A DNA stretch of 64,000 bases, from contig JAQXDG010000187.1 of NCBI GenBank assembly GCA_029251505.1, positions 1-64,000 of the forward strand, in the 5' to 3' direction. The position numbers and the translations under genes were made by a program. The notes beneath the pieces are model-generated. The model was not told the DNA's origin and did no database searches. It saw only the letters and a list, made by a program, of their open reading frames with translations. The DNA is from Glaciecola sp. GTDB lineage: Bacteria; Pseudomonadota; Gammaproteobacteria; Enterobacterales; Alteromonadaceae. This document shows, one piece after another, positions 21,483-56,814 of the stretch (the stretch's first letter is position 1; every line of letters starts with the position of its first letter).

Positions 21483-23447
21483 CTACCATTTGTAAGCCAT
21501 TGAGACGATAGCTTTGCGTTCTAACCCGCGGTATCCGACAATGTCTTGATAAGTATGATTGAGTAAGTTATCGATTTTAGCATTGACAGAAAACTGCTTA
21601 GATACGGCAATATTAACGTTTGCATTAATCATCCAATATGGGCGCATTGCGATAATTTGTGACGCTTGCGGCCATGGCGGAAAAAACTGGTCAAATTTAG
21701 CACCAACGTAACTGGCACTGACATAAGTAGATATCGAATCAGACCAATTGTAACTGGTATTAAACGACGCATTGTGACGCGCTCGGCGTAGTTCTACACT
21801 TTGTGCTTCACCGCTTCCTTGAGTCGCATCCAAATAGCTATATGTTGCATTAAACGCTAAATCCGTTGCGCTCCAAGATACTTCAAATTCAGCACCATCA
21901 CGATCGCTTCGGCCATCGATATTATCAGCCGTAAATCCGCCTGACGCGCTATCAAAGACAAAACCATTGATCTCGTCTTCAAGTTGCGCGCTAAAAATAT
22001 TGAACTGGGTATTAAAACCGCTAGATGTGTAGCGCAGGCCTAATTCAACTGTGGTGACGATTTCAGGTTGGAGTTCTGGGTTACCCACAAATGTGCCGGC
22101 GTAAAAGCCAAAGCGTTCTGTAAACGTTGGATTTTTACTGGCTTGTCCCACACTCGCAAACCAAGTAAGCGCCGCGGACTGCTGCCAATTCGCCCCGACA
22201 CGATAATCGGTCGCTGCTGCAAATTCACTATTGTCGGTATAGCGCACTGAAGCATTAATAAATGCACGATGGGTGATACTGACGACAGCATCAGCAAAGA
22301 CACTGTTACTATCAATTGTTTGAGTCTGATTAGGATCACCAAAATCAATCGGTCCACGTTGTGTAAAATCAATCTCTTCCAGACTTGCCCCGACGTGAAA
22401 TTGTCGGGTCATGGCCTGATTTGAATAATCTAATTTAGCGATAGAGGACAGGCTATGAGTGGTTGCATCGGTAAGAGAAGATAACTGGCCATCACTGGTA
22501 TTCTCGACTACATTGCTATGCGTACTTGCGGTGGTATTGAGTGACCAATTTGCCGCAGTTGGCGTCAATAACCATTGTAGTTTTGCGCTTTGTTGGCGAC
22601 CTTGCGAGCGGTTATCCGCATCAACCGGTAAGCCAGTGGTTACAAAATCAGTTGCATCAAATTCTGTCTCATAATCAACATAATGGAATACGGCATTCAA
22701 GGCATGTTGCTTATTCACTGTATAACCCAGTTTGCTATGGATACTGGTATTGCTGTAGCCATCTTTTTCGTTATTGTTTGGCACTATACTGATATTTTGA
22801 CCATCAGTACTGATATGGCTAACGGTAAACCCATATTGTAATTTATCGGATTGAGCTTGATGTTGGAACTGGGCTTGTTGCGTGTTTTGCTGACCGACAC
22901 TTAATTTTAAGGCACTTTCATTACCATCAGTTTGACTACCGTCTTTGGTGATAATGTTCAATACACCGCCTACCGCACCATCACCCCAGAGGGCACTTTG
23001 TGGCCCACGGTATAACTCAATTCGGGCAATACTTTGTGTTGATAAATGCGCTAAATCGACTAGACCGCCTTGGCCTTGATCATTGACTGCAATCCCGTCA
23101 ATGATCACTAATATATGATTGGTTTCGCTGCCACGTAAGCGCAGTTCGGCAAACTGACCAACACCGCCATTAGTAGAGATATCAACGCCAGCGAATTGAA
23201 CTAATAAATCAGCAACAAATGTCGCTTGGCTTCGAGCAATATCTTGCTCGGTCAGCACGCTAACATTGCCTGCTAATTGCGCAATCGGTAATGCAGAATG
23301 AGAGCCAGATACGGTAATCGTTTCAACGAATGTGTCCAGTGACTCGGGTTTGATTTGTGTATTCGCCAAGACTGGGGCACTGCAAACTAAAGCAGCAAGT
23401 ATTTTAAAAGATAAAATGCGGGATGTGTTCATGTTAGTTTTTTCCAT
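21483..23447 (-). CDS. btuB: TonB-dependent vitamin B12 receptor BtuB
   Basis: Outer-membrane gated channel for cobalamin. 654 residues with a signal peptide ending near APVLA, a TonB-box region (FVETITVSG), a plug with LRLRGSETNHILVIIDGIAV and a beta-barrel ending LERKAIVSMAYKW with the terminal aromatic residue. Barrel sequence alone cannot prove the ligand, but the cobalamin riboswitch directly upstream makes B12 transport very likely. The start could also be five codons later at 23432. It is inserted between srkA and dsbA, which are often adjacent in relatives. Confidence 0.92.
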   Translation of the reverse strand: MEKTNMNTSRILSFKILAALVCSAPVLANTQIKPESLDTFVETITVSGSHSALPIAQLAGNVSVLTEQDIARSQATFVADLLVQFAGVDISTNGGVGQFAELRLRGSETNHILVIIDGIAVNDQGQGGLVDLAHLSTQSIARIELYRGPQSALWGDGAVGGVLNIITKDGSQTDGNESALKLSVGQQNTQQAQFQHQAQSDKLQYGFTVSHISTDGQNISIVPNNNEKDGYSNTSIHSKLGYTVNKQHALNAVFHYVDYETEFDATDFVTTGLPVDADNRSQGRQQSAKLQWLLTPTAANWSLNTTASTHSNVVENTSDGQLSSLTDATTHSLSSIAKLDYSNQAMTRQFHVGASLEEIDFTQRGPIDFGDPNQTQTIDSNSVFADAVVSITHRAFINASVRYTDNSEFAAATDYRVGANWQQSAALTWFASVGQASKNPTFTERFGFYAGTFVGNPELQPEIVTTVELGLRYTSSGFNTQFNIFSAQLEDEINGFVFDSASGGFTADNIDGRSDRDGAEFEVSWSATDLAFNATYSYLDATQGSGEAQSVELRRARHNASFNTSYNWSDSISTYVSASYVGAKFDQFFPPWPQASQIIAMRPYWMINANVNIAVSKQFSVNAKIDNLLNHTYQDIVGYRGLERKAIVSMAYKW

Positions 23448-43872: not shown

Positions 43873-43901
43873 ATATGACAACGTTAATAAAAATGTCATA
43901 T
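43873..43901. promoter_or_regulatory. Candidate PhoB site / inverted repeat before phoB
   Basis: ATATGACA (43873-43880) and TGTCATAT (43894-43901) are exact inverted repeats. ATGTCAT also pairs with CGTTAAT 11 bases earlier, the spacing of PhoB half sites. phoB is autoregulated in E. coli. The match is modest. Confidence 0.4.
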
Positions 43902-43960: not shown

Positions 43961-44647
43961 ATGTCTCGTACTATTATGTTAGTTGAAGATGAAGCGCCAA
44001 TTAGGGAAATGTTAAAGATTGTTTTAGAGCAAGCGGGCTTTTCGGTCAACGAAGCGGAAGATTTTGATATTGCACTAGAGAAGATGGTCGAACCGTATCC
44101 TGATTTGGTCTTATTAGATTGGATGCTACCTGGTGGCAGTGGTGTGCAACTTGCGCGTAAACTAAAAGAACATGAATTTACTCGTGACATTCCCATTATT
44201 ATGCTTACCGCGCGTGGCGAAGAAGAAGATAAAGTCAGAGGCCTAGAAGCCGGAGCTGATGATTATATTACCAAGCCATTTTCGCCAAAAGAACTAGTGG
44301 CACGCATCAAAGCGGTCATGCGCCGAGTGACGCCAACGGCGAGTGATGAACTCATAAACTTTTCCGGCTTGGTCTTAGATCCTGTCGCGCATCGTGTTTC
44401 GGCAAATGACGACCGAGTAGACATGGGACCGACAGAGTTTAAGTTGCTGCATTTTTTCATGACTCATGCGGAACGAGTCTATTCGCGTGAACAGCTATTG
44501 GATAATGTTTGGGGTACCAATGTCTACGTCGAAGATCGGACTGTGGATGTGCATATTCGACGTTTACGCAAAGCGATTTCAGTGCATGGACATGATTCAA
44601 TGATTCAAACGGTTCGCGGTGCTGGCTATCGTTTCTCAATTAAATAA
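43961..44647 (+). CDS. phoB: Phosphate regulon response regulator PhoB
   Basis: OmpR-type regulator activated in phosphate starvation. 228 residues (E. coli 229). The receiver domain has the phosphorylated aspartate in [13 protein letters not shown] and the conserved lysine in [15 protein letters not shown]. The winged-helix domain begins near residue 130 and ends [15 protein letters not shown]...[10 protein letters not shown]. phoR follows after 18 bases. The identity as PhoB rather than another family member is supported by phoR and a PstS-type gene behind it. Confidence 0.95.
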
Positions 44648-44665: not shown

Positions 44666-45991
44666 ATGTATTATCCGTTTTCATGGTCTAAAAACATTGT
44701 TCAACTCACGATATTTGTCCTGTTGGTCATTGTCTTGGGTGGTATGTTTGATGATCTTGTATTAGCTGTAGCGCTAGCAACCATTGCTATTTTAGGGTTT
44801 AATTTTTATCAATTATATAAACTCAATCAATGGGTATGGCACAGCAAAAAACTCTCCCCGCCTAAAGTCTACGGAGCATGGGAATACATATACGAAGGTA
44901 TCTATCAGCTACAACGCCGTCAACGGGGTAAACGTAAAGAGCTCAGCGAATTGGTGAAACGGTTTCGTAAAGGTGCAGAGGCGTTACCCGATGCGGTGAT
45001 TATTTTGGATAATGATGCGACGATTATCTGGTGTAACCGTTTAGCACGTCTGGAGTTAGGGATAAAATGGCCTGATGATTTAGGCATGCGTATTGATAAT
45101 TTACTGCGCCATCCTGAGTTTGTAGAATATTTCCAAACCGCGGATTATACTTATCCGATAGAAGTGCCTTCCCCTGCTAATCCAAGAAAAACTAATGAAT
45201 ATCGGATCATGCCCTATGGCGATGATAACCTGTTGTTGATCTCGCGAGATGTGACTCGTGTGTCTCAATTAGAGGATATGCGTCGTGATTTTGTGGCGAA
45301 TGTGTCGCATGAAATGCGCACGCCATTAACCGTTATTAATGGCTATTTAGAGATGTTACCCATGACCTCTTTGGATGATGATCCGTTAGCGCACAAAGCC
45401 ATCTATGAGATGAGTACCCAGACTAAGCGCATGCAAAATCTAATTGAAGATTTGTTAGTGTTGTCACGCATTGAATCAAGCTCTGAGCGAATTTATGAGC
45501 ATATCGTCAACATGCCAAGTATGTTTGCGCAAATAGCGATGGAAGCCAGACAATTAAATACGGATAAACAGCATCAGATTGAGTTTCATATCGACCCTGA
45601 ATTACACGTTTATGGTGTTGAGGGGGAGTTGCGTTCAGCGTGTTCTAATCTTATTTTTAATGCGGTGCACTATACACCTGATGGCGGTAAAATAGATGTG
45701 TATTGGTCTAAAAATGGCCATGATGCCGTGTTTAAAGTCGTAGATAATGGTGATGGTATTGATGATAAGCATCTGTTGCGTTTAACGGAACGTTTTTATC
45801 GCGTGGACAAGGCGCGTTCTCGCAAAACGGGTGGCTCCGGCTTAGGCTTATCTATCGTTAAACATGTATTAAATCACCATAACTCATTATTAGAAATACG
45901 AAGTATTGTTGGACAAGGCAGTGAGTTTTCGTTTAGGTTAGGCTATGAATTAATTCCTACAGAGACGTCTAAAACGGACTATGCTAAGTAA
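44666..45991 (+). CDS. phoR: Phosphate regulon sensor kinase PhoR
   Basis: Inner-membrane histidine kinase for PhoB. 441 residues (E. coli 431). Two transmembrane helices lie within the first 60 residues with almost no periplasmic loop, followed by a basic linker and a PAS domain (ALPDAVIILDNDATIIWCNR), HisKA with NVSHEMRTPLTVINGYLEM (phosphorylated His), and an ATPase domain with SNLIFNAVHYTPDGG and GGSGLGLSIVKHVL. Short periplasmic part and PAS are typical for PhoR. Its end overlaps the next gene by 11 bases. Confidence 0.95.
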   Translation: MYYPFSWSKNIVQLTIFVLLVIVLGGMFDDLVLAVALATIAILGFNFYQLYKLNQWVWHSKKLSPPKVYGAWEYIYEGIYQLQRRQRGKRKELSELVKRFRKGAEALPDAVIILDNDATIIWCNRLARLELGIKWPDDLGMRIDNLLRHPEFVEYFQTADYTYPIEVPSPANPRKTNEYRIMPYGDDNLLLISRDVTRVSQLEDMRRDFVANVSHEMRTPLTVINGYLEMLPMTSLDDDPLAHKAIYEMSTQTKRMQNLIEDLLVLSRIESSSERIYEHIVNMPSMFAQIAMEARQLNTDKQHQIEFHIDPELHVYGVEGELRSACSNLIFNAVHYTPDGGKIDVYWSKNGHDAVFKVVDNGDGIDDKHLLRLTERFYRVDKARSRKTGGSGLGLSIVKHVLNHHNSLLEIRSIVGQGSEFSFRLGYELIPTETSKTDYAK

Positions 45992-47039
45992 ACGATTACC
46001 TCATTTTTTGAACGTTGTGCTCATCGTAATTGCTAGTACAGCATTACCTTCTTGGTCCGAGGAATTTCCAAAAGAAGCGCCTCAAAAAAACGCACCTAAG
46101 ACAGATCTGCTTGAACCTATAGTCCTGCCAGCAAAGGGTATTGTTGGTAATATGACTTCCATTGGCTCCGATACATTATCCAGTTTAATGACTGTATGGT
46201 CAGCCGAATTTAATCGTATTTACCCTCAAGCCAAAATCCAAATTCAAACAACTGGCTCATCTGCTGCTCCCATTGCCATCACTGCCGGCACAGCTTCAGT
46301 AGGACCCATGTCACGCCCATTAAAGCCCTCAGAGCGACAATCCTTTATTAATAAATATGGTTATGAGCCATTGATGATTACCGTGGCGATTGATGCGATT
46401 GGCGTATTTGTAAAGGACACGAATCCATTGACGTCGATAACCCTACCGCAATTAGATGGCTTGTATAGTGCGACTCGCTATTGTGCGCCACGTCGGGCTA
46501 TCGATAATTGGGCGGAGTTATTAACTCATGAAGAATATCGCCAAGCTGAATTTTCCAATATGCCGACATTTCCGGTGAGGCTATATGGTCGAAATTCGGC
46601 ATCAGGTACGTATATTTTCTTCAAACAACATGCATTATGTAATGGCGACTACCAAGCGCAAGTGCAGCAATTACCCAGTTCGTCATCGATCATCCAAACT
46701 GTTGCCAATGGTCGCGGTGCGATGGGTTATGCCTCAGTCGGCTATCAGTCCTCGGGTGTAAAAACCTTAGCAATAGCGAGCTCTGCTGCAGAGCCTGCCT
46801 ATCAGGTTAATGCGTACAATGTGCAGACGGGACTTTATCCTTTAGCACGTAGTTTATTTTTAATGATTAACCAACAGCCAGGAAAACCGTTTTCTCCGGT
46901 GTTAGCTGAATTTCTTAAATTTGTTTTATCTGATGACGGCCAATTCATTGTTGTTCAAGAAGGATATTTTCCAATTGCAGAATCTCAGCAACAATCTCAA
47001 TTAAAAACCTTGTTTAACGCAGCGCACCCCACTCAATAA
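45981..47039 (+). CDS. PstS-family phosphate-binding periplasmic protein
   Basis: 352 residues with a signal peptide (LNVVLIVIASTALPSWS). The mature part has SIGSDTLSSLMTVWSAEFNR, TTGSSAAPIAITAGTASVGP and GRNSASGTYIFF, the phosphate-binding segments of the PstS superfamily. Its start lies inside the end of phoR, so the three genes phoB-phoR-pstS-like are translationally linked. No pstCAB transporter genes follow here, so it may supply phosphate to a transporter encoded elsewhere or act in sensing. Exact specificity is inferred. Confidence 0.85.
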   Translation: MLSKRLPHFLNVVLIVIASTALPSWSEEFPKEAPQKNAPKTDLLEPIVLPAKGIVGNMTSIGSDTLSSLMTVWSAEFNRIYPQAKIQIQTTGSSAAPIAITAGTASVGPMSRPLKPSERQSFINKYGYEPLMITVAIDAIGVFVKDTNPLTSITLPQLDGLYSATRYCAPRRAIDNWAELLTHEEYRQAEFSNMPTFPVRLYGRNSASGTYIFFKQHALCNGDYQAQVQQLPSSSSIIQTVANGRGAMGYASVGYQSSGVKTLAIASSAAEPAYQVNAYNVQTGLYPLARSLFLMINQQPGKPFSPVLAEFLKFVLSDDGQFIVVQEGYFPIAESQQQSQLKTLFNAAHPTQ

Positions 47040-47087
47040 AAAGTCATCCCTATCTCCGTACTATGAATGTTTTATGACAATTTCTAT

Positions 47088-47109
47088 ATGTAACATTTTT
47101 GTCATTATT
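47088..47109 (+). promoter_or_regulatory. Candidate PhoB box before the lipoprotein gene
   Basis: ATGTAAC (47088) and TTGTCAT (47099) are spaced 11 bases apart, as PhoB half sites (CTGTCAT) are. The first matches weakly (4 of 7), the second well (6 of 7). About 60 bases upstream of the lipoprotein start. Confidence 0.4.
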
Positions 47110-47166: not shown

Positions 47167-48744
47167 ATGCGTTTAAATGATTTATTTAAAGTCACAGCGA
47201 TTGCTGGTGCGCTTACTCTTGCTGCTTGTGGCGGTGATATCAATATTACTCCAACAGTGAATGACAACAGCGTTGATAATAGCCAGTCTAACTCAAATAA
47301 TGTCACTGAAACTGCTGCTCCAGTCGTTGCAGACGTTGCCTGTGCATCTTATACCGATGCACGCGGACTAAACGAAGGAACGAAAACGGGTGAAGATTGC
47401 GTATACAGTACCTCGTTTGCTAGTGCGACAGTTGAAATCGAATCAAACATTACTTTACGTGCGTTACCTAATGACGGCATCCATGTATTTGAAGGTGCAT
47501 TACAAATTGGTAAGGATGTTACCACTGATGGCACGGCTGTCGTTGTTCCAACAACCAATCCGACACTCACCGTCGAACCAGGTACAACGGTGACCTTTAC
47601 TTCGGGTGAGGCAATTGTGCGTATCGCTCGTGGTGCTAAAATCCAAGCGGTTGGTACTGCTGCTGCACCGATTACCTTTACGTCAGCCAAAGCATATGAC
47701 CGTTATGACTTAGCTAACGAAGGGGCTAAATATGCTGATTGGGGTGGCATTATTATCAACGGCCAAGCCATAACTGACCAGTGTGATGACGCTGCTCGTG
47801 CCGCCAATACTTGTAATATTCAATCTGAAGGTATCGCGTCTAACTTCGGCGGTAGCGATAACACTGACAGTTCTGGTGCAATCAAATTCACTAAAATTTG
47901 GTACGCAGGTTCTGGTCCTAGAACCGGTGGCTCAGGTGATGATCTTAACTCGCTGACATTAAATGCAGTCGGTAACGGTACGGCGATTGACTACATCCAC
48001 ATTCACCAAGGTTATGATGATGGTATCGAAATCTTCGGTGGCGACGTTTGGTTCTCTCACGTTGTTGTGACTGACACACAAGATGATTCATTTGATTTTG
48101 ATGCCGGTTGGCAAGGTGGTGCACAATTCTTATTCGTACAACATGGTACTGCCGATGGCGCAAACATGGGGAACGGTGGTTTTGAGCAAGATGGTAAAAA
48201 ATCAGGTGGTTCAGCTGTCACCGCAGCAGATATTGCTAACGTAACAATCAAAGCGACAGGTCTTCCTTCTGTTCGTGATGAAGATGATTCGGTTCCAATG
48301 AAGTTTGATGATGAATACACGGCTGAGTTTTATAACGTTGTTATTACTAAAGCTGCCGCGGACAATGCATGCTTAAACTTCTCTTCTGATGGTCAGAAAA
48401 AAGCAGATTTGATCGCCTTAAACAACTCCGTTATTGCCTGTGACACATTGTCTAATCCAGTGACATTTGGTGATACCGCCCCTGCTGCACTGCAAGGCAC
48501 TGCAGTCGCGGATTGGTTGGCAGCAACATCTGAAGTCGTCGCTGATGAAACGGTTGGACTGCTAGCGGCTAACGGTATCAATACAGATATGACGAATATC
48601 ACAGTGACGCCTGAGACTGATTTAGCCAGTAAAGATGGACGTTTCGTTGACGCTGACTACATCGGTGCGGTAGCCGCGGATGATACCTCTTCTGCATGGT
48701 ATAACTGGGTTGTCGCAGCTGTTGCAGCGGCCAACGCAGACTAA
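47167..48744 (+). CDS. Large lipoprotein paired with TonB-dependent receptor
   Basis: 525 residues. Signal with lipobox LAAC (Cys about residue 19: ALTLAACGG), then a low-complexity linker rich in Asn and Ser. The body reads like a beta-helix or beta-rich domain: TLTVEPGTTVTFTSGEAIVR, ADWGGIIINGQAI, YIHIHQGYDDGIEIFGGDVW, and FSHVVVTDTQDDSFDFD. Few-cysteine distribution suggests disulfides (CDDAARAANTC). It resembles surface lipoproteins of marine bacteria found beside TonB receptors. It precedes the receptor gene with a terminator between, so it is probably made in excess. A role in capturing the ligand is inference. Confidence 0.75.
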   Translation: MRLNDLFKVTAIAGALTLAACGGDINITPTVNDNSVDNSQSNSNNVTETAAPVVADVACASYTDARGLNEGTKTGEDCVYSTSFASATVEIESNITLRALPNDGIHVFEGALQIGKDVTTDGTAVVVPTTNPTLTVEPGTTVTFTSGEAIVRIARGAKIQAVGTAAAPITFTSAKAYDRYDLANEGAKYADWGGIIINGQAITDQCDDAARAANTCNIQSEGIASNFGGSDNTDSSGAIKFTKIWYAGSGPRTGGSGDDLNSLTLNAVGNGTAIDYIHIHQGYDDGIEIFGGDVWFSHVVVTDTQDDSFDFDAGWQGGAQFLFVQHGTADGANMGNGGFEQDGKKSGGSAVTAADIANVTIKATGLPSVRDEDDSVPMKFDDEYTAEFYNVVITKAAADNACLNFSSDGQKKADLIALNNSVIACDTLSNPVTFGDTAPAALQGTAVADWLAATSEVVADETVGLLAANGINTDMTNITVTPETDLASKDGRFVDADYIGAVAADDTSSAWYNWVVAAVAAANAD

Positions 48745-48777
48745 TTAAGCCTCTTCGCTTAATTAAGTCATTAAATT

Positions 48778-48815
48778 GGGCGCAGTCTAATTCAAATATT
48801 AGTCGCGCCCTTTTT
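48778..48815 (+). terminator. Terminator between lipoprotein and TonB receptor genes
   Basis: GGGCGCAGTCTAAT and ATTAGTCGCGCCC form a long, nearly perfect stem followed by TTTTT. It lies 20 bases before the receptor start, so it likely lowers, rather than abolishes, receptor expression from the upstream promoter. Confidence 0.85.
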
Positions 48816-48835
48816 GTTAATTCTTAGGAAAGATT

Positions 48836-51514
48836 ATGAAAACACACCACAATCTCCACAAATTATCCCTAGCAGTATGTGTTGCGATCCTAGGTACCTC
48901 CTCGTTGGCTATGGCTCAACAAGATGAAGATGCAGTGATTGAAGAAGTGGTTGCCACCGGTTCACGTCTTCAAGGTAGTGCGACAGCGGTGATTGAAGAA
49001 CGTAAAAATCAAGCATTTGTTGCTGATATATTAGGTGCTGAACAGATTTCACGAACCGGTGATAGTGATGCGGCCTCTGCACTTCGCCGTGTAACAGGAT
49101 TGACCTTAGTTGATGGTAAGTTTATTTATGTCCGTGGTTTAGGGCAGCGCTATTCATCAGCTCGGTTAAATGGTGCAAATGTACCTAGCCCTGATTTAAG
49201 TCGAAACGTCGTACCATTAGATATTTTCCCTGCATCCATCATCGAAAGTATGGCGGTACAAAAAGCTTACTCACCGAATATGCCGGCCGCATTTGGTGGC
49301 GGAAATATCGATATTCGTACTACTTCAGTTCCTAATGGCTTTACTTCAGGTTTAGAAGTGTCTGGTGGGATCAATACCGCTACTTCGGATGTGTTTGATT
49401 ACAATCGTGATGAATCGGCATTATCAACCACCATGCAAGATGCAATTGGCAACTATAGAGGGATTTTCTCATTAGCCAATATTGCACGTTTGAATGGATT
49501 CTCCGGTGAGACCGCTGGCACAGACGCCATTTCCCTTAATAATGGATTATTAGCTTCATTGCCGCGTGATTATGCCATTACTGAAAAATCAGCTAAGCCG
49601 AATTATGGCGTTAAATTTCATATTGGTAATGCGTTTGATGAAGATGTGTTTGGGGGTAAATTTGGCGTATTATTGTCAGTCAATTATGACAACAAATCTA
49701 GCTCAACGGATAAATCCACCGCGGTAATCGCACAAGATCCACAAGCTAACTGTGTCACGGATATTATGGCGGCAGAAGATGTGGCCTTATCGTGTTACAA
49801 CACGTTCAAGGATGTGACAACCACAACGTTAAATGAGCGCTTAAATAGCTATGTCAATGTCGGCTATAAATTAGATGCGCATTCGCTGTCTTATACCAAT
49901 ATTCAATTAGCAGATAATGAAGATACGATTGATGTGTCAGTGCAACAATCACCAGCAGGCTCAAGTATTTTCTCTATCTTAGGCAATGGACTCGCTAATC
50001 GTTTTCACGAGTTCAGATATGAGAAACGTGAGCTGAGTATTAATCAATTTATAGGTCAACATACGTTCAAAGAACTGGATAACTTGGGGCTAGATTGGCA
50101 ATACACTCGTTCACAAGCGAAGACGGATATTCCTGGTTCGGCCAAGTTTGGTTTCTTAGATCGCTACACGAATGCAACCCGAACCGAATCTAATATTACG
50201 GGTGATGATAACCGCGTGATATATGAGTTTACTAATATGGATGATCGTCTCGACTCATATGGCGGAAATGTGTCTTATATGATGTTTATTGCTGATTCTG
50301 AAATTGAATTTAAAGCGGGTTATGATTTTACCGACCGAGCTCGGTATTACACCACTTCAGGTTTTAGTGTCTCGAATGACTCAGGCAGTGCCATTACCAT
50401 CAATGATTCTGGTAGTCACTTTTTAGCTGATTCGGGTTATCTGATGGGAGATTTTATTACTAACAACGATGTGTTAGTTGATTTTAATGAACCACTTGCA
50501 CCCAATGCAGATGATTATTTGGCGGCTCAGCAAATTGATGCTGGCTACGGTATGGTCGATGTCATTATTGGTGGCGAGTACCGCATTTCAGGTGGGTTGC
50601 GTTGGGAAAATTTCCAACAGGTCGCAATAGGCACATCCAGTATTATTTTTACACAAGATGATTTGAATGTATTTTATGACCCTGCCAAGGTGCAAGAGTC
50701 GACCATCAATGAAGATGATGTTTATGGCTCACTGGCTTTTACCTATATTGGTGGCTCTGAATATCAAGTTCGAGCTAGTTATGGTGAGACGATTGTGCGT
50801 CCTGATTTACGTGAGGTTGTGCCGGTATTTTACTTTGATCCACTGACTGATATTCGTACTAACGGTAATTCAAACTTAACTTCTAGTAATATCAAAAACT
50901 ACGATCTGCGTTATGAGTATTATGGTGATGTGGGTAATAATGTATCGGTCGGGTTATTTTATAAAGATATCAAAGCACCGATTGAAACCGTGTTACAAGC
51001 GGGTGATGAAGATTACGCAGCTTACTTTATCAACTCTGATGATGCGACCTTGATTGGTGTTGAGACTGAGTGGTTATATGGGCTAGATGATGTGGTCAAA
51101 GGGGTATTTACCTCTGGTAATATCACTCTCAGCGAATCAGAAGTCAGTATAGATCCTGCTCGTGCGGGTAACTTAACCAACACAACGCGTCCACTTACGG
51201 GACACTCTAAGTATGTGGTTAACTTGCAGTTGAATTATGATTCAGATAATGGCGAACACAGTGCGTCATTGGTGTATAACGTGTTTGGAGAGCGAATTAC
51301 TGCTGCAGGGATTGAAGGTCGTGGTGATGCGCTTGAACAACCGTTCCATTCTTTGGATGTTGTGTATAGCTACTATCCTGATTTTAATTCTCAAATCAAA
51401 GTGAAAGTGCAAAACTTATTGGGACAAGATCAAGAAGTGACACAATCGGATATCGCAGTGCGAACTCGCGAAGTCGGAACGGGTATTAGTGTGGCTTACA
51501 AGTACGAATTCTAA
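48836..51514 (+). CDS. TonB-dependent outer-membrane receptor
   Basis: 892 residues. Signal peptide ends near SSLAMAQQ. A TonB-box-like region EEVVATGSR is followed by the plug domain (LRRVTGLTLVDGKFIYVRGL and GGGNIDIRTTSVPNG) and a long beta-barrel ending in ISVAYKYEF with the terminal phenylalanine. It belongs to a long receptor subfamily, not the BtuB/FepA size class. Position downstream of phoBR-pstS and the lipoprotein, and in front of a dedicated TonB motor, suggests it imports a phosphorus-containing ligand. The ligand is not proven by sequence. Confidence 0.85.
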   Translation: MKTHHNLHKLSLAVCVAILGTSSLAMAQQDEDAVIEEVVATGSRLQGSATAVIEERKNQAFVADILGAEQISRTGDSDAASALRRVTGLTLVDGKFIYVRGLGQRYSSARLNGANVPSPDLSRNVVPLDIFPASIIESMAVQKAYSPNMPAAFGGGNIDIRTTSVPNGFTSGLEVSGGINTATSDVFDYNRDESALSTTMQDAIGNYRGIFSLANIARLNGFSGETAGTDAISLNNGLLASLPRDYAITEKSAKPNYGVKFHIGNAFDEDVFGGKFGVLLSVNYDNKSSSTDKSTAVIAQDPQANCVTDIMAAEDVALSCYNTFKDVTTTTLNERLNSYVNVGYKLDAHSLSYTNIQLADNEDTIDVSVQQSPAGSSIFSILGNGLANRFHEFRYEKRELSINQFIGQHTFKELDNLGLDWQYTRSQAKTDIPGSAKFGFLDRYTNATRTESNITGDDNRVIYEFTNMDDRLDSYGGNVSYMMFIADSEIEFKAGYDFTDRARYYTTSGFSVSNDSGSAITINDSGSHFLADSGYLMGDFITNNDVLVDFNEPLAPNADDYLAAQQIDAGYGMVDVIIGGEYRISGGLRWENFQQVAIGTSSIIFTQDDLNVFYDPAKVQESTINEDDVYGSLAFTYIGGSEYQVRASYGETIVRPDLREVVPVFYFDPLTDIRTNGNSNLTSSNIKNYDLRYEYYGDVGNNVSVGLFYKDIKAPIETVLQAGDEDYAAYFINSDDATLIGVETEWLYGLDDVVKGVFTSGNITLSESEVSIDPARAGNLTNTTRPLTGHSKYVVNLQLNYDSDNGEHSASLVYNVFGERITAAGIEGRGDALEQPFHSLDVVYSYYPDFNSQIKVKVQNLLGQDQEVTQSDIAVRTREVGTGISVAYKYEF

Positions 51515-51540
51515 CAGTCCTTAACCCTAACGATTGATAT

Positions 51541-51568
51541 TAAAAAGAGGCTTCGGCCTCTTTTTTTG
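51541..51568 (+). terminator. Terminator after the TonB receptor
   Basis: AAAAAGAGGC-TTCG-GCCTCTTTTTTT is a classic rho-independent terminator with a UUCG tetraloop. Confidence 0.93.
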
Positions 51569-51608
51569 TGAATTCTACGCTATATGACACTTTTGTGAAG
51601 TCTGCGCT

Positions 51609-51641
51609 TTGTCACCGATTGGTAATATAACTGTCATATAC
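51609..51641 (+). promoter_or_regulatory. PhoB box before the TonB motor operon
   Basis: TTGTCAC (51609), TGGTAAT (51620) and CTGTCAT (51631) are direct repeats at exact 11-base spacing, matching the PhoB half site (CTGTCAT) at 5, 4 and 7 of 7 positions. About 75 bases upstream of the DUF3450 gene, the usual distance for PhoB activation. Confidence 0.7.
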
Positions 51642-51711: not shown

Positions 51712-52479
51712 ATGAAACGCGTAAGCTCTCTCATACTGATCTTATTGAGCGCACTGGTGGTCACTACCAATAGTTACGCTCAAGAAGATAACACGGTAAA
51801 ACAAGTGGTCGATAATGCTGCTTTGATAAATCAATCTGCAGCTAATTCACAACTCAAAATTAATCAAATTGCGGATCAAATTGATAGCAAATTACAACAA
51901 TTCAAAGCCTTAAATAAAGAAATTGAAGGCTTGAATGTCTATAACGCGCAATTGCAAAAACAAATTAATTTCCAGAATCAAGAAATGGCAGATTTAAATG
52001 CCGCGATTGATGAAGTGAGTGTCATTGAACGTCAAATTACGCCGCTAATGATGAATATGATTGATGGATTAGCGCAGTTTGTCACCTTAGATGTGCCTTT
52101 CCTTCCCGAAGAACGCAACCAACGAGTGACGGATCTACGCGCCATGATGGATCGCGCTGATGTCGCTCCTTCTGAAAAGTTTCGCCGAGTAATGGAAGCC
52201 TTCCAAGTAGAAATGGATTACGGACGTACCTTAGAAGCCTACCAAGGATTACATATGATTGATGGTCAAGAACGTGATGTGGATTTTTTACGTTTAGGTC
52301 GGACTGCGTTGATTTTTCAAACGCGTGACGCGGCTCGTCAAGGCGTGTGGAATAAACAAACTCGTCAATGGGAAGCATTGGATTCAAGCTACCGCACCCA
52401 GATTACCAAAGGGTTACGAATGGCTAAAAAGCAACTTGCGCCAGACTTATTAATGCTACCTGTAGCGATTACCGACTAA
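51712..52479 (+). CDS. DUF3450 family exported protein
   Basis: 255 residues with a signal peptide ending near TNSYAQ. A long heptad-like coiled coil covers about residues 40-110 (for example LQKQINFQNQEMADLNAAID); after that MMNMIDGLAQFVTLDVPFLP and RTALIFQTRDAARQGVWNKQ mark the DUF3450 family. It is the first gene of the TonB motor cluster and always found with TtpC-type ExbB proteins in marine gammaproteobacteria, so a structural or regulatory part in the motor is likely. Function not established. Confidence 0.85.
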   Translation: MKRVSSLILILLSALVVTTNSYAQEDNTVKQVVDNAALINQSAANSQLKINQIADQIDSKLQQFKALNKEIEGLNVYNAQLQKQINFQNQEMADLNAAIDEVSVIERQITPLMMNMIDGLAQFVTLDVPFLPEERNQRVTDLRAMMDRADVAPSEKFRRVMEAFQVEMDYGRTLEAYQGLHMIDGQERDVDFLRLGRTALIFQTRDAARQGVWNKQTRQWEALDSSYRTQITKGLRMAKKQLAPDLLMLPVAITD

Positions 52480-52483
52480 GAGC

Positions 52484-53854
52484 ATGACAATGAAAAAATT
52501 ATTTACTCCTATCATTGCCCTCATATGTGCCACTCTGTTTAGTGTTGGTGTACATGCAGCAAACGAGCGCGCGTTAGATTTAGATGCGCTATTAAAGCAA
52601 CTTGAACAAGGTCAGTTTGCGCAAAAGCAAGAAAATGCGCAACGCGAAAAAGAGTTTGTCGCACAACGAACACAACAAGATAACGTATTACGAGATACCA
52701 CGACACAACGTGATAATGCATTAGATTTGTCAGAAAAATTAGAAACACAATTTGAAGAAAATGAATTCAAATTAGCGGATTTGAACGAGGCGTTAACCAA
52801 TCGTTTAGGTTCATTAAAAGAATTGTTTGGTGTGTTACAGCAAGTATCGGGTGATACCAAAAACAAATTTTATAACTCGGTGGTATCGGCACAAATTCCA
52901 GGTCGTTCAGAATTTTTAGATAGCATGGCTCAAGATATGGGCAAATCCTCTAAGCTTGCTTCAATCACTGAAATTGAACGGGTGTGGTTTGAAATCCAAC
53001 GCGAAATGACCGAAGCGGGTAAAGTAACTAAGTTTACGACATCAGTAGTCGAAGCCAGTGGTAGTAAAGTCGATAAAGAAGTGGTTCGAGTCGGCCCATT
53101 TGCACTGATTGCTGATGGTAAATACTTAGAATACAACGGTGTAACCGGTACGGTATCAGAATTAATTCGTCAACCGGCGGCACGCTTTGGTTCTTCGGTC
53201 TCAGATTTACAAAACTCCGATGGAGAATTAGTACAATTTGGAATTGACCCTACAGGCGGTTCTATTCTGGGTTTATTAGTACAAGCTCCAAATCTAAAAG
53301 AACGCATAGAACAAGGTGGTTTGGTGGGTTATATCATCTTAATTGTCGGCGCGATTGGTTTGTTATTAGCACTTGAGCGTTTAGTGTCATTATTCATTAT
53401 TAAAACAAAAGTCGACAAGCAACTTAAATCTGACACATTCAGTGATAGCAATCCTTTGGGTCGTATTATGAAAGTCAAAGAAACTTACCCAACAGCGGAT
53501 ACTGAAGCACTGGAATTACATCTTACTGAAGCTATTTTAGGTGAAGTGCCCAAACTCGGCCGTAACTTAACGATTATCAAGATTATCTCGGTAGTGGCGC
53601 CATTGATGGGTCTATTAGGGACCGTCACCGGGATGATCAATACGTTCCAAGCTATAACGCTTTTTGGTACTGGTGATCCTAAACTGATGGCCGGTGGTAT
53701 TTCGACAGCATTAGTAACGACAGTACTCGGTTTAGTGGTCGCGATACCCATGACATTATTGTACGCGATGCTTAATACCCGTAGTAAAAACATCGTATTT
53801 ATCCTGCAAGAACAAGCTGCAGGTGTGATTGCAGAGCGTTCAGAACGAGGCTAA
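52484..53854 (+). CDS. TtpC-like MotA/TolQ/ExbB proton channel protein
   Basis: 456 residues. Signal peptide (ending VHAAN), then a periplasmic coiled-coil region to about residue 260, then three transmembrane helices with the ExbB signature SVVAPLMGLLGTVTGMINTF and GGISTALVTTVLGLVVAIPM. This large form corresponds to TtpC, which vibrios need in their TonB2 systems, placed in addition to a normal ExbB. The gene lies four bases after the DUF3450 gene. An ATG six bases into the frame is an equally possible start. Confidence 0.9.
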   Translation: MTMKKLFTPIIALICATLFSVGVHAANERALDLDALLKQLEQGQFAQKQENAQREKEFVAQRTQQDNVLRDTTTQRDNALDLSEKLETQFEENEFKLADLNEALTNRLGSLKELFGVLQQVSGDTKNKFYNSVVSAQIPGRSEFLDSMAQDMGKSSKLASITEIERVWFEIQREMTEAGKVTKFTTSVVEASGSKVDKEVVRVGPFALIADGKYLEYNGVTGTVSELIRQPAARFGSSVSDLQNSDGELVQFGIDPTGGSILGLLVQAPNLKERIEQGGLVGYIILIVGAIGLLLALERLVSLFIIKTKVDKQLKSDTFSDSNPLGRIMKVKETYPTADTEALELHLTEAILGEVPKLGRNLTIIKIISVVAPLMGLLGTVTGMINTFQAITLFGTGDPKLMAGGISTALVTTVLGLVVAIPMTLLYAMLNTRSKNIVFILQEQAAGVIAERSERG

Positions 53855-53857
53855 ATC

Positions 53858-54406
53858 ATGATTGAGTTTTTTGAAGCCATTCGCGACTTTACAGAAACGG
53901 GTGGCCAAGTACTTTTGGTCATCGGCTTCTTGATCTTCGTGATGTGGATGCTCATTCTAGAACGTGTGTTATATGTGTTTGTGTCACACAAAGACAACAA
54001 ACGCAGCGTCTTAGAAGGGTGGCATGCTCGTGATGATAAATCATCATGGAACGCGGAACAAATCCGTCAAAAAGCCATTTCACGTTTAATTTTGAGTCTC
54101 AATGGCAGTATTCCGGTTATCCAGGCCTTGGTAGCCTTGTGTCCATTATTAGGATTGATGGGAACGGTGACTGGGATGATTGAGGTTTTTGATGTGATGG
54201 CTATATCGGGTTCAGGCAATGCGCGTTCAATGGCCGCTGGCGTGTCGAAAGCAACGATACCCACCATGGCTGGAATGGTCGGCGCATTATCTGGGGTCTT
54301 TGCTTCAACGTGGTTAACCCGAATGGTGAAAACTGAACGCATGCACTTAGAAGATGCAATCCAAATTGAACGTCCTACCACACAGGCTGAATCAGCTGCG
54401 CAGTGA
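53858..54406 (+). CDS. exbB: ExbB-type proton channel subunit
   Basis: 182 residues. Three transmembrane helices with LVALCPLLGLMGTVTGMIEV and AGVSKATIPTMAGMVGALSG, the ExbB/TolQ signature. Compact and without signal peptide, it is the true ExbB of the complex; the TtpC-like protein encoded four bases upstream is the larger paralogue. Works with ExbD and TonB to drive the outer-membrane receptor by the proton gradient. Confidence 0.92.
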   Translation: MIEFFEAIRDFTETGGQVLLVIGFLIFVMWMLILERVLYVFVSHKDNKRSVLEGWHARDDKSSWNAEQIRQKAISRLILSLNGSIPVIQALVALCPLLGLMGTVTGMIEVFDVMAISGSGNARSMAAGVSKATIPTMAGMVGALSGVFASTWLTRMVKTERMHLEDAIQIERPTTQAESAAQ

Positions 54407-54425: not shown

Positions 54426-54833
54426 ATGAAACAACATTTTCAAAATTTAATGGATGATGAAGAAGCGACAATCGATATGACGCCAATGCTTGATGTGGTA
54501 TTTATCATGCTCATCTTCTTTATCGTAACCGCTTCATTTGTCAAAGAAGCAGGTATCGATGTAAACCGGCCGGATGCAGCTACGGCAGTCAAAAAAGACC
54601 GCGCGAATATTTTAATCGCGATTAGCGATACCGGTGAAATTTGGATCAACAAGCGTCGAATTGATGCGCGTGCAGTGCAAGCCAATATTGAGCGTCTGCA
54701 TGCTGAAAATCCACAAGGGACGGTGGTGATCCAAGCTGATAAAAAAGCGACCACTGAGGTCTTGATTAAAGTCATGGATGCATCTCGCTCAGCGGGTGTA
54801 TACGACGTTTCAATCGCCGCGCAAGAGCCATAA
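54426..54833 (+). CDS. exbD: ExbD-type energy transducer subunit
   Basis: 135 residues. One transmembrane helix near the N terminus contains the essential aspartate in IDMTPMLDVVFIMLIFFIVT, followed by a periplasmic domain with IMIKVMDASRSAGVYDVSI-like ending. Lies 19 bases after exbB and is followed four bases later by tonB, all on one transcript. Confidence 0.92.
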   Translation: MKQHFQNLMDDEEATIDMTPMLDVVFIMLIFFIVTASFVKEAGIDVNRPDAATAVKKDRANILIAISDTGEIWINKRRIDARAVQANIERLHAENPQGTVVIQADKKATTEVLIKVMDASRSAGVYDVSIAAQEP

Positions 54834-54837
54834 ACTG

Positions 54838-55449
54838 ATGATTTCACGTTTTCTAATTGCTATTTTGGTTTCTGCATTCATTACATTAGGATTATTTTTT
54901 GTAATGCAGTCATTAATCAAAAGTGGTGGCAGTGCATTAACCGAACCGCCCAGAGGCAGTGTGATGGATTTTGTTCGTGTCAAAAAAGAAGAGTCGGTTG
55001 AGAAAAAAGATCGTAAGCCGAAAAAGCCGCCTCAACCTGAAGCGCCCCCTCCAGAAATGACGTCTCCGCAAATGGACTCGCCGTCACCTGATGCCGATGC
55101 AACAGGTATGGATTTTTCCGCGGATGTGGCTACTGATATATCGTTAGATGGTGGACTATCACTAGACTCTGGTGATGGTGAGTACTTACCTATTGTAAAG
55201 GTGGCACCGGTCTATCCACGGCGAGCATTACAGCGCGGTATCGAAGGGTTTGTCATCGTTGAGTTTACCGTCAGTAAACTAGGCGCGGTAACTAATCCAG
55301 TGGTAATTGAAGCGCAACCTGCGGATATATTTGATCAAGCGGCGTTAGATGCAGCGAAGAAATTTAAATATAAACCACGTGTTATTAACGGTGAGCCCAC
55401 TGCGGTTGCCGGTGTACAAAACCGTATTACCTTCAAGATCGATGGTTAA
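54838..55449 (+). CDS. tonB: TonB energy transducer
   Basis: About 203 residues from the ATG at 54838. An N-terminal anchor helix (FLIAILVSAFITLGLFFVMQ), a proline/lysine-rich spacer (KKPPQPEAPPPE), and the C-terminal TonB fold with VYPRRALQRGIEGFVIVEFT and AALDAAKKFKYKPRVINGEP. The spacer is short, as in TonB2-class proteins of vibrios. It spans the periplasm to touch the receptor's TonB box. Confidence 0.93.
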   Translation: MISRFLIAILVSAFITLGLFFVMQSLIKSGGSALTEPPRGSVMDFVRVKKEESVEKKDRKPKKPPQPEAPPPEMTSPQMDSPSPDADATGMDFSADVATDISLDGGLSLDSGDGEYLPIVKVAPVYPRRALQRGIEGFVIVEFTVSKLGAVTNPVVIEAQPADIFDQAALDAAKKFKYKPRVINGEPTAVAGVQNRITFKIDG

Positions 55450-55470: not shown

Positions 55471-56814
55471 ATGAAACAGTCTATTACACAATCCTTGTTA
55501 GCTTGTTGTTCAGTCATGTTACTAGTTAGTAGCATCTCGTTAGGTTCGGGGATGATGTTTGCAGCGCAAGCACAAACACCCACTAAAGCGAGTGACAAAG
55601 CGACCCGCAAAGTGCCCACTTTGCGCGGTAAAGTTTACGAGCAATTATCCCGAGCACAGAGTTTTGCCGATAACAATCAAACCACCGAAGCTTTTGCGGC
55701 ATTAAAAGAAGTAGAAGACAAAATCTCGTCAATGAACAGCTATGAAATTGCTATGCTATATAATTTTTATGGGTTTATCTATTACAACCTTGAGCAAACT
55801 GATAATGCTTTAGCCGCATTTAAAAACGTTATTGAGCAAGAGGGGATCCCTGAATCATTTGAGCAAAGTACCTTGTTTACGCTTGCCCAGTTGTCAATGA
55901 TGCAAGGTCAATACAAGGATTCGATTGATTATTTAAATCGTTGGGAATCGCTTAACGTAGGAAAAGTTCCAGCCAAAAATTTATTCATCAAAGCTCAAGC
56001 TTATTATCAAGACAAACAATATGAACAAGCGGGTGAGTTTGTGAGTCAAGCCGTTGCCAGTAAGGAAGGCGATGGCATGATCCCGGATGAAGGCTGGCTG
56101 ATCTTGCAACGAGCTATTTTTTATGAACTCAAGCAAGTTGAAAAAGTAAAAGATGTCCTAATCAAAATGGTCAAATTATTTAATGAGCCTAAGTACTGGA
56201 TCCAACTGGCTGGTATTTATGGTGAATTAGGCTTAGAAAATCATCAATTGGCGGTCATGGAAGCTGCTAAACAACAAGGTTACCTCACCAAAGCAGCGGA
56301 TATCTTTAACATGGCGCAGCTTTATTACTATCACAAAGCACCTTATAAATGTGCTGATATAATGCAGCAAGGCATGGCTGAAGGTGTGTTAGAGGAAAAT
56401 ATTCGGAACTTGAAATTTCTAGGTCAATGCTATCAATTAGCGAAAGAAAATGACAAGGCGGTGCCGGTGATGCGCGCAGCCGCAGCGTTATCCAGTGATG
56501 GTGAATTGCATGCCACATTGGCGCAATTATTGTTGAATATTGAAGATTATGATAGTGCCATTGATAACGCTGATTTAGCACTTGCTAAAGGTTCATTACG
56601 TAATCAAGGTACTGTGCATTTAGTATTAGGTATGGCCTACTACAACAAACGTGAGTTTGTAAAAGCCATGGATCAATTAGCTGTTGCTGAACAATTCACC
56701 GCTTCACGTAAGATGGCTGAACAATGGCAAAAATTTGTTGAGACAGAAAAACGTAGTTATGATCGTATTCAATCAGATTTAGCCAACGAAAAGCTTGTAG
56801 CTAAGAGCGAGTAG
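55471..56814 (+). CDS. TPR-repeat protein of the TonB motor cluster
   Basis: 447 residues. Signal peptide, then repeated helical pairs typical of tetratricopeptide repeats (for example YNFYGFIYYNLEQTDNALAA, AKNLFIKAQAYYQDKQYEQAG and GMAYYNKREFVKAMDQLAVA). Encoded 21 bases after tonB and always last in this type of cluster. Probably a periplasmic scaffold for the motor; no enzymatic motif. The precise role is unknown. Confidence 0.85.
   Translation: MKQSITQSLLACCSVMLLVSSISLGSGMMFAAQAQTPTKASDKATRKVPTLRGKVYEQLSRAQSFADNNQTTEAFAALKEVEDKISSMNSYEIAMLYNFYGFIYYNLEQTDNALAAFKNVIEQEGIPESFEQSTLFTLAQLSMMQGQYKDSIDYLNRWESLNVGKVPAKNLFIKAQAYYQDKQYEQAGEFVSQAVASKEGDGMIPDEGWLILQRAIFYELKQVEKVKDVLIKMVKLFNEPKYWIQLAGIYGELGLENHQLAVMEAAKQQGYLTKAADIFNMAQLYYYHKAPYKCADIMQQGMAEGVLEENIRNLKFLGQCYQLAKENDKAVPVMRAAAALSSDGELHATLAQLLLNIEDYDSAIDNADLALAKGSLRNQGTVHLVLGMAYYNKREFVKAMDQLAVAEQFTASRKMAEQWQKFVETEKRSYDRIQSDLANEKLVAKSE

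Follow-up and report, generated by a model that had tools for sequence, protein, structure and literature searches.

The gene pair and its neighborhood

The 64 kb stretch of a Glaciecola sp. genome analyzed here (contig JAQXDG010000187.1, positions 1 to 64,000; hereafter the window) carries two adjacent genes on its forward strand, one for a lipoprotein of 525 residues (47167..48744) and one for a TonB-dependent receptor of 892 residues (48836..51514), with an intrinsic terminator between them. The lipoprotein is the product of an open reading frame (ORF) with a single predicted beta-helix module (core at 47557-48684); its N-terminus reads MRLNDLFKVTAIAGALTLAAC|GGD and holds the lipobox LAAC at residues 18-21, in which Cys21 is followed by Gly, Gly and Asp. 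The receptor, in which the Pfam domain Plug scores above its cut-off, corresponds by position to CC0171, the neighbor of the lipoprotein ElpS (CC0170) in Caulobacter crescentus. On homology and gene order, the pair is a member of the family of ElpS and the adjacent TonB-dependent transporter (TBDT), with a distinct gene neighborhood. The first-pass annotation of this DNA had described the same adjacent genes, with a strong terminator 20 bases before the receptor, and ORFs, Plug and RNA folding agree with it.

Homologs of the lipoprotein were found in 46 of 295 genomes of the same order and in 51 of 398 genomes of the phylum Pseudomonadota, the genome of origin being counted in both; the module is also present, with 99% identity, on a contig of Glaciecola sp. 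UBA983. Three sets of loci were compared: 20 order loci, hand-chosen among the 46 genomes with matches; 80 named loci, including one (L051) from the genome of origin or a near copy, which was excluded from the Pho-box and terminator counts; and a phylum sample of 33 loci. At class and phylum level, 33 genomes had a match; G364, whose match lies at a contig end, contributed no locus, and G390 contributed two. A receptor homolog lies adjacent on the same strand in 20/20 order loci. Among the named loci, an adjacent receptor was counted in 65/80 (61 downstream, L051 among them, and 4 upstream), or in 66/80 once L117 was added after inspection; six of the remaining 14 lie at or near a contig end, five have a receptor homolog elsewhere in the stretch and three have none. 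The co-occurrence check attached to the first-pass annotation likewise finds the lipoprotein rarely without a receptor, the two being adjacent in 31/33 phylum-sample loci (29 downstream, 2 upstream). Set against 18 Plug matches in the 2.6 Mb of the genome of origin, this adjacency across deep branches is far tighter than chance.

All 50 receptors scanned, the window's included, carry Plug, and none carries PF13715 at E up to 0.001; this N-terminal carboxypeptidase-regulatory-like domain is typical of SusC. The AlphaFold model of the window's receptor has a predicted local distance difference test (pLDDT) score of 85.5, and its best second-look match is BtuB (2guf; Z 35.8, root-mean-square deviation (rmsd) 2.5, 527 residues aligned), while no solved relative was found by sequence at E up to 0.1. 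The window holds another TonB-dependent receptor gene on the opposite strand (21483-23447, minus strand; Plug at 22962-23282).

The neighborhood of the pair is one of phosphate starvation and outer-membrane import. Upstream on the forward strand lie phoB, for the phosphate response regulator (43961..44647; TIGR02154 at 366.8 bits, cut-off 296.2), phoR, for the phosphate sensor kinase (44666..45991; PRK11006 and TIGR02966 above their cut-offs), and a gene for a PstS-like phosphate-binding protein (45981..47039; PBP_like_2 above its Pfam cut-off, TIGR02136 at 186.2 bits, below its cut-off of 206.6). Downstream, a terminator-like hairpin with a T-tract follows the receptor gene (51542..51567, forward strand, from folding of 51500-51580), and six consecutive forward-strand genes then encode products above Pfam cut-off: a DUF3450 protein (51712..52479; PF11932, 305.9 bits), a MotA/TolQ/ExbB protein with a long N-terminal part (52484..53854; PF01618, 103.9 bits), an ExbB-like protein (53858..54406; PF01618, 75.2 bits), ExbD (54426..54833; PF02472, 109 bits), TonB (54778..55449; PF03544 TonB_C, 73.5 bits; its start is uncertain, the longest ORF overlapping exbD) and, last of the cluster, a tetratricopeptide-repeat protein (55471..56814; several such models above cut-off). 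We take the long ExbB-type protein to be TtpC-like, and its cluster to be of the TonB2/TtpC type. The phosphate genes, the Pho-box-like sites described below and the TonB cluster did not figure in the first-pass annotation. Within the fetched stretches, phoB/phoR are present in 7/20 order loci and 8/80 named loci, and a TtpC homolog in 12/20 and 22/80. Some relatives have, between phoR or pstS and the lipoprotein gene and directly adjoining the latter, a gene of 265-280 codons (L038:8324-9133, with similar lengths in L035, L046, L067, L076 and L114); the L038 product matches a 2OG-Fe(II) oxygenase, and the window has no such gene.

Pho-box-like sites and the terminator between the genes

Candidate PhoB-binding sites were sought by a scan of 14 scored positions, with at least 11 required, in the 250 bases that precede the longest ORF start, using what we take to be the Pho-box consensus. 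Before the lipoprotein gene of the window, one site scores 11/14 on the reverse strand (47063-47080) and another 10/14 on the forward strand (47088-47105). Before the DUF3450 gene, a forward-strand site scores 11/14 and has TATTAT 10 bases downstream (51620..51637). Five sites of at least 11 occur in the whole 64 kb, two of them in the upstream gaps of the lipoprotein and DUF3450 genes, and the best score in the gap before the lipoprotein was reached by 1/300 random sequences, which here and below were drawn from first-order Markov (dinucleotide) statistics and are not exact permutations. A further site of 10/14 (43882-43899), with AATAAT 10 bases downstream, precedes phoB and lies inside the opposite-strand rdgC frame. 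When a -10 pattern was required beside the Pho box, the window gave nine sites and ten random sequences gave 2-8, so this combined pattern is weak evidence; only those at 51620 and 43882 precede genes of interest.

Across the relatives, Pho-box-like sites are concentrated before particular genes of the locus. They were found before the lipoprotein in 48/89 cases, DUF3450 in 18/26, phoB in 11/20 and pstS in 2/10; the corresponding counts are 2/90 for the receptor, 1/36 for TtpC, 2/24 for phoR, 0/10 for rdgC and 52/915 for other ORFs. The difference between the lipoprotein and other ORFs gives a Fisher p of 1e-29, and in the phylum sample 12/20 lipoproteins have such a site against 34/227 other ORFs (Fisher 1.9e-5), with 1/25 for receptors; both p-values overstate independence because the loci share descent, and the phylum count stands at 20 lipoproteins since the ORF picker lost the lipoprotein in 13/33 loci.

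The terminator of the window consists of a forward-strand hairpin (48778-48810, GGGCGC...GCGCCC) and the T-tract TTTTT (48811-48815), which ends 20 bases before the receptor ATG. A simple consensus scan missed it because the stem is interrupted, and folding reveals the hairpin at -15.9 kcal/mol, a value reached by 0/300 random sequences with the first-order statistics of the gap. Immediately ahead of the terminator, a second, A+T-rich hairpin (48739-48769) spans the stop codon of the lipoprotein gene. Two sub-threshold Rfam matches were obtained, neither of them at the hairpin between the genes. For comparison among loci, a gap was scored as holding a terminator when RNA folding gave -12 kcal/mol or stronger, gaps of fewer than 30 bases were excluded (62/71 pairs kept in the main count, 96/109 in a recount with other start sites), and the controls were other co-directional gaps of the same loci and random sequences. 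By this rule, 35/62 lipoprotein-receptor gaps hold a terminator, against 59/271 other co-directional gaps (Fisher 2.2e-7) and 12/310 random sequences. The recount gave 11/20 for order loci, 29/52 for named loci and 7/24 for the phylum sample, a total of 47/96, with 14/480 for random sequences. Within the phylum sample the 7/24 pair gaps show no excess over the 8/32 other gaps (Fisher p 0.77). The terminator thus exists in the window and is frequent among its closer relatives, without being a rule for the whole family. The suggestion made with the first-pass annotation, that the arrangement resembles SusC/SusD-like control of the expression ratio, thus holds up in part, as terminators between the two genes are found again in relatives of the order and named sets but show no excess in the phylum sample; in the window's own lineage, the hairpin may set the ratio of lipoprotein to receptor.

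A plausible alternative, which in our estimate falls somewhat short of probable, is that the hairpin has no role in stoichiometry, and that it stabilizes the lipoprotein mRNA at its 3' end or closes one transcription unit while the receptor is served by a weak promoter of its own. Some pairs without a terminator (for example L034, L046 and L050) and the phylum-sample result fit this alternative, as does the expression of the Caulobacter genes: reverse-transcription PCR, given as 'data not shown', is reported to have revealed induction of elpS but constitutive expression of cc0171, and this speaks against simple read-through in Caulobacter (PMC2996285). Against it stand the rarity of Pho-box-like sites before receptors and, in the window, the 20 bases between T-tract and receptor start, so short a distance that any promoter for the receptor would lie at least partly within the hairpin or the lipoprotein gene.

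Predicted fold, conserved residues and modules of the lipoprotein

The AlphaFold model of the lipoprotein, built from 101 sequences, has a mean pLDDT of 90.6 and a predicted template modeling score of 0.90, and its secondary structure is nearly all strand. The fold is confidently predicted to be a right-handed parallel beta-helix, an assignment made from the model together with second-look alignments; Foldseek alone gave no match to the PDB at E 0.001 or better (best 4e-3). Among the matches listed, the second-look alignments reach Z of about 18-21 to parallel beta-helix proteins at 6-12% identity, and these proteins comprise phage tailspikes, NosD, alginate epimerases, polygalacturonases, and pectate and alginate lyases. 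The first-pass annotation had judged the lipoprotein to be beta-rich rather than helical like SusD, and the all-beta prediction and the lack of a SusD match bear this out. By sequence, the lipoprotein matches no Pfam family at E up to 1, SusD included, and no NCBIfam family; Pfam Beta_helix is matched by 15/101 family stretches at E up to 0.1. A profile of 21 modules found no solved relative in the PDB at E up to 1, and a single-sequence search gave four matches, all at E 0.31 or worse.

Six acidic residues (mature numbering: D264, D265, E268, D286, D290 and E320) are identical in 101/101 aligned stretches (in A2, 100 of 112 stretches were used). N241, D264/D265 and D286/D287 follow one another at intervals of 22-23 residues, or about one turn of the helix, and the conserved acidic cluster is probably a cation site. 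The spacing of D264, D286 and D290 resembles that of Asp209, Asp233 and Asp237, the Ca2+ ligands of the pectate lyase Pel9A, whose catalytic base is Lys273 (PMC10992409); the comparison is one of spacing. In no column of the 101 stretches does lysine reach 70%. The only near-invariant basic residue is R135 (99/101), with H260 present in 87/101. At mature position 361, 82/101 stretches have Arg and the window has Asp, and at position 277, 81/101 have Lys or Arg and the window has Ser.

These residues bear on whether the lipoprotein could be an enzyme, a cation-dependent beta-helix lyase or hydrolase that cuts phosphorylated polysaccharide at the surface while the receptor imports the pieces. 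Its resemblance to lyases, epimerases and polygalacturonases, the Pel9A-like spacing of its aspartates and the basic residues of most relatives at 277 and 361 speak for such an activity, and Flavobacterium relatives have been modeled as polygalacturonase-like (PMC8115612). The window's Asp and Ser at precisely those positions, the lack of a conserved lysine to stand for the Pel9A base, the near-invariance of R135 as the sole basic residue of its kind, the reliance of the Pel9A comparison on spacing and the want of a PDB relative by profile all argue in the other direction, and we regard an enzyme as unlikely. We infer instead that the window's lipoprotein is a cation-assisted binder rather than a lyase.

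The number of modules in the family varies. By domain hits, order-locus lipoproteins have one (3), two (14) or three (3) modules among 20 loci, and among the 72 named loci with a recognized ORF, 36 have one, 30 have two and six have three; the two-module count includes L116 (543 residues, two hits), which is a split single module. Double-module lipoproteins are about 880-980 residues long and triple-module forms about 1360 (L041, L046, L049, L065, L067 and L114). In a midpoint-rooted tree of 100 of the 192 modules, in which some long branches are unsure, the window falls in a 12-row single-module clade (support 100/99) separate from the tandem forms. In L078, L125 and L086, both modules of one protein group together, which suggests repeated duplication or conversion. 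The single module of a Salinimonas relative (L060:9659-11104) nests with the second module of the two-module relative L038, which looks like secondary loss. The window has Ser277 and Asp361 beside the otherwise invariant acidic cluster, and the single-module clade may differ in its site chemistry.

Proposed phosphorus scavenging and relation to known systems

ElpS and the receptor CC0171 are encoded directly upstream of type II secretion genes in Caulobacter crescentus, and ElpS is produced under phosphate starvation, palmitoylated and bound to the outer membrane, where proteinase K can reach it on whole cells (PMC2996285). The link from the window to ElpS is made through Caulobacteraceae homologs (L117 and L130, the former with the same gene order) and through reported Shewanella homologs (here L101 and L109). 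In Kordiimonas (L078), lipoprotein and receptor are followed by GspC, D, E and F as identified by Pfam, and in Brevundimonas (L117) by one gene and then gspD, E and F as identified by tblastn, the gene in the place of GspC being matched only in an ORF search; both orders match the reported cc0170-cc0171-gsp order. Type II secretion genes after the pair were seen in Alphaproteobacteria, on a SAR86 contig (L089) and in Candidatus Sulfopaludibacter (L105), the loci including L078, L069, L073, L087, L093 and L117. The first-pass annotation had supposed an unrelated kind of surface capture lipoprotein; in the sense of an unknown kind this does not stand, the ElpS family and its Flavobacterium members FI-FIII having been in print since 2010 (PMC2996285, PMC8115612).

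On the published view of ElpS, the lipoprotein would assist or activate secreted phosphatases, and the receptor would only be linked to it, acting for instance as a sensor or serving some unrelated nutrient; elpS overexpression raised alkaline phosphatase activity in the supernatant while purified ElpS had none (PMC2996285), and a Gsp homolog is present in the fetched stretch of 17/80 named and 16/33 phylum-sample loci, but the tight adjacency of receptor and lipoprotein and the unchanged phosphatase activity after elpS deletion (PMC2996285) make this less likely still than an enzyme.

We lean toward reading the pair as a PhoB-controlled outer-membrane system of ElpS type for scavenging phosphorus. 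Under phosphate starvation, PhoB would activate a promoter before the lipoprotein gene and a second before the DUF3450/TtpC-ExbB-ExbD-TonB cluster. Most transcripts would end at the terminator after the lipoprotein gene, and a read-through fraction would supply the receptor, which has no Pho box of its own, leaving the lipoprotein in excess. The lipoprotein would be anchored in the outer membrane and face outward, as others have shown for ElpS, where its beta-helix, through the acidic cluster and a bound cation, may bind a phosphorus-containing polymer or oligomer (an organophosphate) and hand it over within a complex to the receptor. The receptor would then import this ligand with energy from the neighboring TonB cluster. 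More tentatively, the pair may be a dedicated PhoB-controlled importer of phosphorylated polymers, in which a cation-dependent beta-helix lipoprotein, a receptor and their own TonB motor form a system distinct from SusCD and from phosphate porins, with the ratio of the components set by the terminator in gammaproteobacterial lineages and the power of capture depending on tandem duplication, which yields lipoproteins of one, two or three modules.

Several observations weigh against phosphorus scavenging by such a system. The tie to CC0170 runs via relatives and gene order, and the window's own Pho-box-like sites score 10-11/14 only. The reported constitutive expression of cc0171 and the absence of a terminator excess in the phylum sample are two more such points. 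The loss of elpS without effect on phosphatase activity counts here as well. Basic residues at 277 and 361 in most relatives make an enzymatic role of the family possible, the site in the window being different. Five loci (L080, L115, L127, L132 and L163) have no receptor homolog in the fetched stretch, the genome of L132 having one at another locus, L131. Upstream of the lipoprotein gene in one of the five, L115 of Methylophaga, lies a gene for a DctM transporter subunit.

ElpS and FI are strongly produced under low phosphate in two published studies (PMC2996285, PMC8115612), TonB-dependent receptors are listed in the PhoB regulon in a 2024 study of Caulobacter (PMC11208175), and the family is present in about one in eight of the sampled Pseudomonadota genomes (51/398). 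The anatomy of the locus turns a 'hypothetical lipoprotein' into a testable proposal, that of a capture subunit, unlike SusD, that serves a TonB importer under PhoB control, and suggests a possible route for the uptake of organic phosphorus by marine and soil bacteria.

The window pair resembles ElpS/CC0171 in having a lipoprotein followed by a TonB-dependent receptor in a phosphate-starvation context. It differs in being linked to phoBR-pstS and a TonB cluster rather than to type II secretion genes, no gsp genes lying beside it, and in the terminator between its genes. Two culturable relatives, Salinimonas profundi (L060) and Alteromonas abrolhosensis (L067), share the arrangement of the window. 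No paper on this arrangement in Alteromonadales was found among the matches listed from the open-licence literature, and it goes unmentioned in passages of PMC2536512. In Flavobacterium johnsoniae, the lipoproteins FI, FII and FIII are reported to be relatives of ElpS (31-36% identity over 50-54%) and to be induced by low phosphate (PMC8115612). FI (Fjoh_3856) is the top exoprotein under low phosphate, at 18.7% of the exoproteome, and is paired with an induced TBDT (Fjoh_3857), while FII (Fjoh_0546) is paired with the TBDT Fjoh_0545 beside phoBR (PMC8115612). Unlike the window pair, these belong to Bacteroidota, FecR-like and sigma-factor genes lie in the FI cluster, and FIII is an orphan; their kinship to the window is by report.

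With SusCD and PusCD, the pair shares the combination of a surface lipoprotein and a TonB-dependent transporter, but the window lipoprotein is modeled as a beta-helix without a SusD domain match and its receptor is without PF13715. SusD is mainly helical, with a tetratricopeptide-repeat type of fold. Membership of the SusD group was rejected on the lack of a SusD domain match, the nearly all-strand model and the lack of any SusD_RagB match in the genome of origin (0 matches). BtuB-BtuG of Bacteroides likewise has a non-SusD surface lipoprotein that serves a TBDT, and the window's receptor has BtuB structures among its best matches; BtuG, in contrast to the beta-helix predicted here, is a beta-propeller, and the ligand of BtuB-BtuG is vitamin B12. 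Pel9A shares with the window lipoprotein the right-handed parallel beta-helix (1ru4; Z 19.5, rmsd 3.4, 288 residues aligned) and a similar spacing of acidic residues at its Ca2+ site, but at 12% identity, and the window's family has no invariant lysine base, nor the window itself the basic residues that most of its relatives have at 277 and 361.

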